From positions 1 through 38,580 of the forward strand of contig MHOT01000016.1 in the NCBI GenBank assembly GCA_001820175.1: a stretch of DNA of 38,580 nt. The letters are read 5' to 3'. Below, in pieces: positions 21,797 to 34,206 of the stretch. The position numbers were made by a program, and so were the translations under genes. Source of the stretch: Candidatus Staskawiczbacteria bacterium RIFCSPHIGHO2_02_FULL_42_22. GTDB lineage: Bacteria; Patescibacteriota; Minisyncoccia; Minisyncoccales; Staskawiczbacteraceae. The notes beneath the pieces were generated by a model, which was not told the origin of the DNA, did no database searches, and saw only the letters and a program-made list of their open reading frames with translations. The stretch's first letter is position 1, and every line of letters begins with the position of its first letter.

Positions 21797-21985
21797 TAAC
21801 CCCTCACACTTCTCCAATCCTACACTCGTCATTGCGAGCCCTCGCAAGGGCGCGGCAATCTCCACCGTAGTTTTCTTACTATATTGACAAAGATTGCTTC
21901 GTCGCTGTGGCTCCTGAGTCGGGAATTTCTACTGCGGTAGAAATTCTCGCGACTTGACGCAATGACGGTGGGGTGTGAGGGGTTA
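21797..21985. repeat. TA-ACCCCTCACAC bounded element with CATTGCGAG-type core
   Basis: Outer arms TAACCCCTCACAC / GTGTGAGGGGTTA enclose an inner pair CGTCATTGCGAG / CGCAATGACG and a third pair GAATTTCTACTGC / GCGGTAGAAATTC. Three levels of inverted repeat are therefore nested. No ORF. Confidence 0.8.
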
Positions 21986-21996
21986 CAAATACACTG

Positions 21997-22118
21997 TAAG
22001 CCCTCACGCCCCCACACACCCATTCACCGTCATTGCGACAAAGCAATCTCGTTTCATGTAATTGCACTAGATTGCTTCGTCGCTGCGGCTCCTCGCAATG
22101 ACGGAGTGTGAGGGGTTA
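21997..22118. repeat. second TA-A(G/C)CCCTCAC bounded element
   Basis: Outer arms TAAGCCCTCACGC / GTGTGAGGGGTTA, inner arms CCGTCATTGCGA / TCGCAATGACGG and AAGCAATCT / AGATTGCTT. It lies 11 bases after the previous element in the same orientation. Confidence 0.8.
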
Positions 22119-22134
22119 CAATACACTACCTACC

Positions 22135-22275
22135 TTATTGATTGCCAGCGTTACCCTCTATTTTTTCGCTCATTTCATTAAGAAACTTTAATAACCCTCT
22201 TTTGGGGATACATTCAAATACGGGGCTATTAAACAGTTTCTGGCGCCCTATGGACATCACATCCAGAAACCGCAT
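22135..22275 (-). pseudogene. possible C-terminal remnant of a minus-strand gene entering the element
   Basis: On the minus strand a frame ending at 22135 reads RQKLFNSPVFECIPKRGLLK then FLNEMSEKIEGNAGNQ, which has normal protein-like composition. Going upstream it runs into the palindromic element at 22249-22429, and no matching continuation is obvious beyond it. I cannot name the parent gene. A chance frame is possible. Confidence 0.25.
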
Positions 22276-22429
22276 TCCAACCCTTGCCGGTTTGCCAATC
22301 TTGGGCAGTTTTCACAAAAAATATGTTTGCCGTAGCTACGGCTACGCCAAACATATTTTTTGCTCCAAGCCGCCCAATATTGCCAAACCGCCGGCGGCTT
22401 AAATGCGGTTTCTGGATGTGATGTCCATA
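22249..22429. repeat. TATGGACATCACATCC bounded palindromic element (181 bp)
   Basis: The terminal arms begin TATGGACATCACATCCAGAA and pair over 27 bases. Inside, GCCGGTTTGCCAAT / ATTGCCAAACCGCC and AAAAAATATGTTTG / CAAACATATTTTTT give two further nested levels around GTAGCTACGGCTAC. It ends 11 bases before the first ATG of the mfd frame. Confidence 0.85.
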
Positions 22430-24876: not shown

Positions 24877-25746
24877 ATGGAAGACATTAGGGAAGTAAAA
24901 ATTACTGATAAAAATTACCCAAAACTCCTTAAAAAAATTTCTACTGCGCCCAAAGTATTGTACTATAAAGGAGTACTACCTCAAGAAAATGAAATTTGTA
25001 TTGGAGTAGTTGGCACACGACGACCATCGGTGTATGGACAGCAAGTAACCCTCCAAATTACGGGCGAATTAGCCGATGCGGGCATTACCGTTATTTCGGG
25101 CATGGCGCCCGGCATTGATACCTATGCCCATACCGCATGTGTTGAAAAAGGTGCGCGCACCATTGCGGTGCTTGGTACCGGACTTAATGAAAAAAGCATT
25201 TATCCGCAAGAAAATTTGGAACTATCACGAAATATTATTAAATACGGTGGATGCCTCATTTCAGAATTTAAGCCCGGCACTCCCGGTTACCCCAGTAATT
25301 TTGCCCAAAGAAACCGTATTATTTCAGCGTTAAGTTTAGGTGTCTTGGTAGTTGAAGCAAAAGAAAAATCCGGGTCGCTGATTACCGCCGGATACGCCAA
25401 AATCCAAAAGAAAAAATTATTTGCCATTCCGGGGCCCATTTATACCTTAAACGCCAAGGGTCCCAACAAATTAATAAAAGAAGGTGCGACATTAGTGGAA
25501 AGCGCACAGGATGTTTTGGATGTTTTAGGACTGGAGCCGCGAGGCGCGGCGCACGCGCCGCGCCTCGCGGCGGAAAACGAAACCGAAAAAGTAATTCTGC
25601 AAATATTAGAGCAAGAAGCATTATATATTGATAACATCATAGCGGCGACCAAATTAAGCCCTTCCCAAATTGCCACCACGCTTGCGTTAATGGAAATTTC
25701 GGGTAAAATACGAAACCTGGGCGGCAATGTTTACTCTTTAAACTAG
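24877..25746 (+). CDS. dprA: DprA/Smf, RecA loader for incoming DNA
   Basis: The 289-residue protein has the Rossmann-like DprA domain: GVVGTRRPSVYG near 43-54, SGMAPGIDTYAH near 74-85, FAQRNRIISALS near 142-153, and EAKEKSGSLITA near 160-171. The C-terminal winged-helix domain (about 235-289) ends in GKIRNLGGNVYSLN. Between them residues 221-232 (PRGAAHAPRLAA) are encoded by a 34-bp perfect GC palindrome, foreign in composition to the rest. The gene's stop TAG lies on the first bases of a TA-bounded element. A degenerate copy of the last coding bases recurs at 26572-26660. Function: protection of single-stranded DNA in transformation, pairing with ComEC. Confidence 0.95.
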   Translation: MEDIREVKITDKNYPKLLKKISTAPKVLYYKGVLPQENEICIGVVGTRRPSVYGQQVTLQITGELADAGITVISGMAPGIDTYAHTACVEKGARTIAVLGTGLNEKSIYPQENLELSRNIIKYGGCLISEFKPGTPGYPSNFAQRNRIISALSLGVLVVEAKEKSGSLITAGYAKIQKKKLFAIPGPIYTLNAKGPNKLIKEGATLVESAQDVLDVLGLEPRGAAHAPRLAAENETEKVILQILEQEALYIDNIIAATKLSPSQIATTLALMEISGKIRNLGGNVYSLN

Positions 25747-25914
25747 TGTCTCATTCATTTAATTTTTATGTAATGAAGCTCCCTGGGCTTACGCCACAGG
25801 GTATCTTAAAGGAGATGTTATAATCAGAAACCTAAGGTTTCCGATACCTTCCTAAAGGGTAACCCGCGCGGCAAGATAGCCGCGGGGAATTTTCTTCAAA
25901 TGAATGAAACACTA
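25744..25914. repeat. TAGTGTCTCATTCATTT bounded element with internal hairpins
   Basis: Terminal arms TAGTGTCTCATTCATTT / AAATGAATGAAACACTA pair with one mismatch. The interior holds separate stems CCCTG/CAGGG, GGTATC/GATACC enclosing GAAACC/GGTTTC, and CCGCGCGGC/GCCGCGGGG. A structured RNA is possible. It starts on the dprA stop codon. Confidence 0.7.
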
Positions 25915-32623: not shown

Positions 32624-33073
32624 TACTGACCTTTCACACTTAACTTTACGCTATGATTGGTTATTTCATCCCAGCTTTGCGGTAAAAATACTGTGGTTTT
32701 TCTCTCCCTAGTGCCTCACTAACTTAATTTTGAACCCCTAGCAGCATTGCAATGGATTGTCTTCTAGGCGCGAGGAGCGGCGCGTACCCTCTGTGGTACG
32801 AGAGCGACGAGCAACAACGAAGACAATCCATTGCAATGCTGCCCTTCGGGAACCCAGAAATTACTTCATCTTCTTCTTTGCTCCTCCTCAAGGTGGCACA
32901 AGGCCACCTTTCGTCGTCGCGCATCGAAGCTAAAGCAATTTCTGGGTTCTAGGGGTTCAAAATTAAGTTAGTGAGGCACTAGCTCGCTAGGGTTCGAAAA
33001 ATCCTCGTATTTTTCCCGCAAAGCTGGGCGAAATACCTAAATCCTACATAAAGTTAAGTGTGAAAGGTCAGTA
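32624..33073. repeat. 450-bp hierarchical palindrome (outer element B)
   Basis: Outer arms begin TACTGACCTTTCACACTTAA and pair over 26 bases (right end 33073). Inside are matching arms with the words ATTTC.(T)CCCAGCTTTGCGG and AAAAATAC on both sides, then the fully bounded element C at 32709-32981. The right boundary TA is shared with the neighbouring family A element. No ORF of interest; small frames here are shadows of the palindrome. Confidence 0.85.
32709..32981. repeat. nested element C inside B, with two further palindromes
   Basis: Arms begin TAGTGCCTCACTAACTTAAT and pair over about 31 bases. Two side-by-side palindromes occupy the inside: 32741-32842 (arms GCAGCATTGCAATGGATTGT and complement) and about 32851-32949 (arms AACCCAGAAATT and complement). 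Each has its own inner hairpin: CGTAC/GTACG in the first and AAGGTGG/CCACCTT in the second. The GC content rises inward. Confidence 0.85.
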
Positions 33074-33232
33074 GACCTGTTGCGTATTAAGGATTTACTG
33101 CAAATTGCATATTTCGGCCACAAATTTGCTATAATTTTTCGGCGGGCCCTCTAGGCAAGCCGAAAAATTCTATCAAATTTCTGGCTCAAAATCTTCAATT
33201 TTCGCGACAATCCTTAATACGCAACAGGTCTA
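33072..33232. repeat. palindromic element, family A copy 2 (161 bp)
   Basis: Same ends and inner words as copy 1 at 392-669, without the two extra inserted hairpins of that copy. It shares its left TA with the right end of element B. Confidence 0.9.
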
Positions 33233-33269
33233 GTATAAAAAAAGTCCTGCATATGGTAGCAGAACTCTG

Positions 33270-33977
33270 TTAAAAAGGAAAAGACCCCGTAACGAGTTTA
33301 CCTTTGGGGCAATGAAGGACTGCGGAATAATCGTTACCAAACCACTGGGCTGCCTGCCTATTGCAGACAAAAACCCATTGGCTGCTTTGACAACAAAGGC
33401 ACAGGGTGCAACGAAACCCTTCGGGACTACGCAATACCGTGCCATCAAAAAAAATATTGGAAGTTTTTCCGTGCACCGATTTGGCCCAGGAGGCGGGAAC
33501 CGCCTCTCGGTTTTGCAGAAGGGCCATCAAAATACCTGCATCCAGTCGGATGATGTGACCCACGGCCTTAAGGCGCATCAACTTTTTCTCGCCGTCAATC
33601 GACAGCTCATTGTCTTGAAGCGTGGTTTCCAGCACGATCTTACTTAAATCCAATTGCGTGATGGCAAGCGATCGGCTATCCTGATCCTCTTGACCCACCA
33701 TTCCGTCTCCATCCGGCGGTCCTTGCCAAATAGTCCAGTCCTTTCCCAAAAAAATCGGGTTAAAGCATCGGGAACGGTCAATGCAAACCACGCTTCTTGC
33801 CATAGCAGCAATGGTTGCACTAGTAATTCCGCCAAAAAGCATCTGCCCCTGGGAAATTGCCGTTTTCGGCGCCTGGCTAATACTGCTTTCCAGTTTTTGA
33901 ACTCCTGGAAAAATACCTTTCCGAAAAACCTCCTTAAAAAAGTTAAGGATAAAGGTCATTGAAGCGATGAATGCCAT
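33270..33977 (-). CDS. orphan Cys-rich protein, 235 aa, between two family A elements
   Basis: ATG at 33977 has AAGGAG eight bases upstream. The N-terminus (MAFIASMTFILNFFKEVF) is hydrophobic and could be an anchor; the middle is mixed and the C-terminal third has a CTLCLCCQ cluster plus two later Cys (FVCNRQ and LHCPKG), a possible zinc ribbon. The last codons overlap a CCCC / GGGG hairpin followed by TCTTTTCCTTTTT, so the terminator is within the gene end. Codon use and GC are unlike glyA or tsaC. Both sides carry family A palindromic elements (33072-33232 and 34045-34206). No family is recognised. Confidence 0.6.
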   Translation of the reverse strand: MAFIASMTFILNFFKEVFRKGIFPGVQKLESSISQAPKTAISQGQMLFGGITSATIAAMARSVVCIDRSRCFNPIFLGKDWTIWQGPPDGDGMVGQEDQDSRSLAITQLDLSKIVLETTLQDNELSIDGEKKLMRLKAVGHIIRLDAGILMALLQNREAVPASWAKSVHGKTSNIFFDGTVLRSPEGFRCTLCLCCQSSQWVFVCNRQAAQWFGNDYSAVLHCPKGKLVTGSFPF

Positions 33978-34044: not shown

Positions 34045-34206
34045 TAGACCAACTTAACCAATTACTTCCTACTGCAAAACCATATTTTCGGCTGCAAATT
34101 TGCCATAATTTTTAGGCGGATACGCTGTATAGGCCTGAAAATTCTATCAAATTTTCGCTCGAAAATCTGGTTTTTCGTAACGGAAGTAATTGGTTAAGTT
34201 GGTCTA
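34045..34206. repeat. palindromic element, family A copy 3 (162 bp, diverged)
   Basis: Ends TAGACCAACTTAACCAATTA and complement share TAGACC...GGTCTA with the other copies; the interior words TTCGGC.GCAAATTTGC.ATAATTTTT and GAAAATTCTATCAAATTT are also shared. Arm sequence next to TAGACC has changed on both sides together. Confidence 0.85.

Follow-up and report, generated by a model that had tools for sequence, protein, structure and literature searches.

A nested palindrome in a Staskawiczbacteria genome, probably built by successive insertions of miniature elements that include a member of a widespread family of about 269 bp

A 450-bp palindrome composed of palindromes, located at 32624-33073 of the window analysed here (38,580 nt, contig MHOT01000016.1, assembly GCA_001820175.1, Candidatus Staskawiczbacteria bacterium RIFCSPHIGHO2_02_FULL_42_22), was probably built by successive insertions of miniature non-coding transposons, one of which, element C, would belong to a widespread MITE-like family of about 269 bp with ends of the IS5 type around a REP-like inverted dimer. 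Miniature elements usually diverge quickly and remain within one lineage; here, elements from Patescibacteria to Gammaproteobacteria differ in ends and stems but have one internal architecture in common, in length as in loop motifs. The conserved dimer points to a folded nucleic acid under recognition, and the family offers a test object for the part played by hairpin DNA in the persistence of small transposons.

Layout of the palindrome

All the nested arms described in an earlier, sequence-only reading were found where it had placed them, and the 450 nt folded to -151.0 with DNA parameters, against -47.6 +/- 3.8 for dinucleotide shuffles of the same palindrome (n=60, z = -27). We identified the following features, scored where applicable against R1, a covariance model that covers P1 and the central hairpin:

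32624..33073, no strand assigned: element B, the host palindrome, with ends CTGACCTTTCACACTTAACTTTA; single copy in the genus; its hairpin is continuous without C
32711..32979, plus strand: element C, MITE-like, 269 nt, flanked by TA at 32709-32710 and TA at 32980-32981
32711..32740, plus strand: left outer arm of C, 30 nt, with TA at its end; perfect complement of 32950-32979
32741..32842, plus strand: P1 hairpin unit, with the conserved internal loop AGGCGCGAGGAGCG...GCGACGAGCAAC; 109.5 bits to R1, of which P1 is a training sequence by construction
32842..32850, no strand assigned: central CCC-TTCG-GGG hairpin (CCCTTCGGG), located at the dyad of C, between P1 and P2
about 32850..32949, minus strand: P2 hairpin unit, P1 family, inverted; arms 88% complementary
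32950..32979, plus strand: right outer arm of C, which pairs with the left arm

Element B has TA at both outer edges (32624-32625 and 33072-33073). Its outer arms (32624-32667 and 33030-33073) are 80% complementary over 44 nt, the first 25 bp being perfect, and a second arm layer (32670-32711 and 32987-33028) is 81% complementary. In element C the outer arms are perfectly complementary over 33 bp and those of P1 over 24 bp, and no gene is present within its 269 nt; C is thus short, non-coding and bounded by terminal inverted repeats, as MITEs are. Long palindromes can also be yielded by template switching, but an assembly or hairpin artefact is very improbable here, since C-type elements with different flanks are present in many independent assemblies, between which their arms vary yet stay complementary.

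Probable insertion of C into B

Removal of C together with one TA restores B as an unbroken 179-nt hairpin with the tip CCCTAG-CTCG-CTAGGG, and the boundary between the two layers is therefore likely to be a true insertion of C in the loop of B. In the window, CTAG is found on both sides of C, in agreement with a YTAR/TA target. The centres of palindromes would be suitable targets for such elements, the YTAR/CTAG sites being near-palindromic and located in non-coding DNA. As for the occurrence of the layers on their own, C is found without B at many places; B, a single copy in the genus, was never found without C.

P1 and P2 as parts of element C

The sequence-only reading had proposed repeated insertion into the tips of older palindromes, which agrees with the apparent entry of C into B, with its TA on both sides and its restored hairpin, but does not extend to P1 and P2: in the complete C-type elements examined, these form a fixed inverted dimer that belongs to the conserved anatomy of C itself. 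The minus strand of 32842-32949, outside the training set, matches R1 with 54.9 bits (E 4e-12), and at nearly all complete loci P2 likewise matches R1 on the opposite strand, about 100 nt away, so that the core of C is an inverted dimer of one unit.

That each layer, P1 and P2 included, arrived in a later insertion of its own at the tip of a palindrome already present is unlikely. The outer arms of C do meet at a central TA, so that P1-P2 could occupy the TA of a 60-nt palindrome, and arms-only and one-hairpin forms exist both in the genome of the window and in Thiodiazotropha. However, in the Patescibacteria elements examined P1 and P2 occur together, inverted and with constant spacing, copies in genome G459 show internal deletions within P1 or P2, and the arms-only forms have ragged, asymmetric centres, for which reason they fit deletion derivatives better than pre-insertion forms. 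Two half copies (C21 and C9) were considered as forms lacking P1 and were discarded, being cut by contig ends.

Other nestings were observed in the same genome. In the C copy at C12:73459, an element D sits in the P1 stem with TA on both sides (CGATA, then D, then TAGCATGG), and at C18:72117 an element E lies inside C arms. The D-type palindrome, with a CAAAAAATATGTTTGSCGTAGC core, is present at 22249-22429 of the window and at G000:C12:73459-73807, the copy that interrupts a C stem. At 25746-25912 of the window, flanked by TA 25744-25745 and TA 25913-25914, lies an element that has C-type ends (GTGTCTCATTCATTT) but whose interior is unrelated.

The C-type family in Patescibacteria

We examined 62 C-type elements across Patescibacteria. 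They consist of a hairpin unit of about 105 nt and its inverted copy around a CCC..GGG centre, within arms whose length stays near 30 nt at almost every locus and whose sequences diverge widely. Searching with C, and next with R1, detected relatives in 36 of the 246 genomes of the order but in only 6 of 380 genomes drawn across the phylum, a patchy distribution. The genome of the window holds at least 10 R1 matches, the dispersed copies expected of a MITE, and a large part of the palindromic DNA between the genes of this reduced genome consists of C-type elements. TA is present on both sides of most G459 copies; a point against a MITE is that many of the Patescibacteria copies have imperfect target duplications.

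The stems vary but remain complementary, and the internal loops are conserved. In an alignment fitted to the model, which leans towards structure, 95.5% of stem cells are paired and covariation is 0.737, whereas slid controls do not exceed 0.138. Comparison of copies showed 156 stem pairs with both bases changed and 93 with a change in one base only. Mirrored changes in two 23S copies had suggested the rewriting of an arm in a single event, an idea that we abandoned: recent copy pairs (>=95% identity) show 4 mirrored and 14 one-sided changes, so that stepwise compensation fits better.

Strong covariation and conserved internal loops would also be expected if C were a structured non-coding RNA gene, with stems conserved for the folding of a transcript, and the mismatches of P1 are indeed more often G.T than A.C (39 to 17). 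This bias is absent from the outer arms (51 to 42) and from P2 (18 to 20), which argues for folding or templating at the DNA level. Moreover, C has no match in Rfam 15, one of its two hairpins lies on each strand, and the many copies at unrelated sites, the variation of the ends, the TA flanks and the patchy occurrence are consistent with a mobile element. We consider an RNA gene a poor candidate, slightly poorer than the REPIN-type origin discussed below, and suggest that the hairpin dimer is kept as folded DNA, not RNA. Its role would be at the level of the element, for example as a hairpin that binds a protein and is available on whichever of the strands becomes single-stranded.

Some insertions lie in or beside genes. 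Two C-type elements are found inside a 23S rRNA gene (G112:C64; L113 525-734 and 1013-1222), within variable hairpins; the 23S rRNA gene of G157 is without them, and its flanks are variable. In copy L031 (G000:C18:54162-54432), the right arm provides the ATG and first codons of a putative dnaG (ATGAATGAGGAACTTGAAG...). In many C-type elements of Patescibacteria (e.g. L053 1330-1640, L121 and L122), both outer arms look like the 3' portion of a tRNA, with TTCGAATCC followed by acceptor-like bases. We dismissed a tRNA origin of these arms, as no intact tRNA adjoins them, with the exception of one separate tRNA-Leu, and regard the likeness as resemblance only.

Occurrence in other phyla

A search across phyla with an exact pattern for the internal loop of P1 retrieved at least 118 matching stretches, and the motif is present in at least nine other phyla. 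Among the matches listed are records named as Alpha-, Beta- and Gammaproteobacteria, Acidobacteria, Elusimicrobia, Omnitrophota, Verrucomicrobia, Planctomycetota, Myxococcales, Troglogloeales, Eremiobacterota, Phaeodactylibacter (Bacteroidota), Peregrinibacteria and Berkelbacteria. Viral contigs and viral and phage collections gave no match to the C-type motif. The two-hairpin anatomy of about 269 bp is present in at least four phyla (Proteobacteria, Elusimicrobia, Verrucomicrobia and Omnitrophota), and the inverted P1/P2 dimer also in many of the elements sampled from other phyla. Beyond Patescibacteria, 15 of 50 TA-bounded elements are exactly 269 nt long, and a second length class of 127-166 nt has one hairpin.

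When elements outside Patescibacteria were selected with no condition on their flanks, TA was found on the left in 46, on the right in 41 and on both sides in 32 of 69. Where both flanks are TA, the context is YTAR, with C/T before the TA in 28 of 32 cases and G/A after it in 31 of 32. One Thiodiazotropha genome, with about 75 element ends, contains arms-only (57-61 nt), one-hairpin (163-164 nt) and two-hairpin (268-270 nt) forms together, and one Thiodiazotropha element carries its hairpin inverted.

Ends and transposases

An 809-bp insertion sequence on an Enterobacter cloacae plasmid, annotated as IS5 family and encoding DUF4096 and DDE_Tnp_1/DDE_Tnp_1_2 in two frames, has at both sides exactly the ends of the gammaproteobacterial elements (TAGGGCCTGTTAACACTA, Thiodiazotropha). 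ISAba31, of the IS4/5 family, was published with similar ends and a duplication of 2 bp (PMC4776018). The best reading of the gammaproteobacterial elements is that IS5-type transposases move them as non-autonomous passengers.

The ends of C in the window (GTGCCTCA...) differ from those of the IS5 type, and our searches for an autonomous partner carrying them found none, so that mobilisation of the window copy by an IS5-type enzyme is our inference; a DDE transposase acting in trans would move it. An IS630 element of the same genome was rejected as partner of C because its ends differ, a pair of ends 1.9 kb apart in Nevskia, considered as an autonomous element, turned out to be two unrelated sites, and the solo ends in Thiohalobacter had no transposase. 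In the proposed arrangement, short transposase-recognised ends of the IS5-family type, with a TA target in a YTAR context, would enclose the conserved REP-like dimer P1/P2.

One core with many different ends is not predicted by a simple MITE model with one transposase. We tentatively raise the possibility, less probable than the MITE-like reading, that P1-CCC..GGG-P2 is a module conserved in its own right. Mobile elements with unrelated ends would have it in common across many phyla, and a widely conserved factor would recognise it as folded DNA. If so, the module would be an undescribed structural engine, or passenger, of miniature transposons.

Comparison with known systems

Longer palindromes that contain REP dimers were already known, namely GTAG-15 of A. 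variabilis and CGTC-1 of H. neapolitanus (PMC3733652), and these are the closest precedent: they share with C an inverted hairpin dimer inside an outer palindrome, and the P1 loop is like that of the CGTC type. C differs in its units of about 105 nt with long stems (REPs have 20-40 bp), its IS-like ends, its TA flanks, its fixed length of about 269 bp and its presence in several phyla. The open-access text searched held no account of the 269-bp architecture, nor of its IS5-type ends, spread or loop motif, and the architecture, ends and unusually wide spread appear to be new.

REPINs, moved by RAYTs, are likewise non-autonomous and consist of two inverted palindromic units that form a larger hairpin (PMC3116915). 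P1 and P2 could accordingly be REPs that a Y1 (RAYT) transposase mobilises in the form of single-stranded hairpins: the P1 loop (GCGAGGAGC...GCGACGAGCAA) resembles a CGTC-type REP at 22072-22096 of the window, and Y1_Tnp is commoner in carriers (about 27/36 compared with 95/210). However, Y1_Tnp (PF01797) was not detected in five carriers of C, the genome of the window, G002, G010, G012 and G030, whose assemblies are 93-99% complete, and this disfavours such a mechanism. In addition, the ends of C act as terminal repeats with TA flanks, and CGTC-type REPs were reported without transposase association (PMC3733652). A REPIN-type origin thus seems improbable to us. A separate REP dimer (CGTCATTGCGAG...) lies at 21827-22103 of the window, and its hairpin loop has GCGAGGAGC...GCGACGAAGCAA in common with P1.

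To return to the MITE-like reading, IS5-family MITEs (cf. ISAba31, PMC4776018) resemble C-type elements in being non-coding, in the TA duplication seen in part of the copies and, for the gammaproteobacterial members, in the TAGGGCCTGTTAACACTA repeats, identical to those of an IS5-family insertion sequence. The interior of C, in contrast, is no deleted transposase gene: it holds a hairpin dimer that is conserved and is also present in elements with different ends. Rickettsia RPE-4 and RPE-6, equated with CGTC REPs (PMC3733652), are by their description like C in being palindromic and able to sit within genes; C is larger, with two hairpins and TA flanks. A survey of insertions in CPR rRNA genes (PMC11270868) described group I/II introns, carriers of homing endonucleases and uncharacterised short insertions; its text has no mention of 'palindrom' or 'inverted'. 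G112, with its two C-type elements, likewise has rRNA insertions.

Element A and the history of the locus

On its right side B is abutted by a further miniature element, a relative of which lies downstream:

33073..33231, plus strand: element A, a AGACCTGTTGCG... MITE with an AGT duplication (33070-33072 and 33232-33234); abuts B
34046..34205, plus strand: A-type element with different arms (AGACCAACTTAACC...) and ATT on both sides

The initial description of every boundary as TA holds for B and C, but not for the adjoining A, with its 3-bp AGT duplication; copies of A, read by eye, show an A-N-T duplication. A begins AGACC, and its left AGT consists of the last bases of B, from which it follows that A arrived after B. 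The structure probably formed in three steps: B would have entered at a TA, C at the TA in the middle of B's hairpin loop (CTAG), and A at an ANT site that overlaps the right end of B.

Element A is related to a complete 1102-bp IS5-type insertion sequence in G010 (C25), with A-related TAGACCTGTCCCTAAATAACTT ends and an ACT duplication, of the A-N-T type, as expected of an IS5-family derivative. The transposase of this insertion sequence matches DDE_Tnp_4 and DDE_Tnp_1, and its NCBIfam IS5-family match is below the cut-off of that model.

In five relatives from the genus, all without the whole block, glyA directly adjoins Sua5, so that the block of the second A-type element, an ORF, A, B and C is lineage-specific. 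The ORF (33270-33977, 235 aa) lies between the two A-type elements, is missing between Sua5 and glyA in the five relatives and has no Pfam or NCBIfam match. Upstream of glyA in two relatives, G008 and G009 (L127 and L136), a reverse-transcriptase-like frame was noticed by eye. Palindromes inside palindromes are common in the genus, as in the long forms of A (277-321 nt; 392-669 of the window, L066, L070, L036, L042 and L061), which have one to three extra small stem hairpins.
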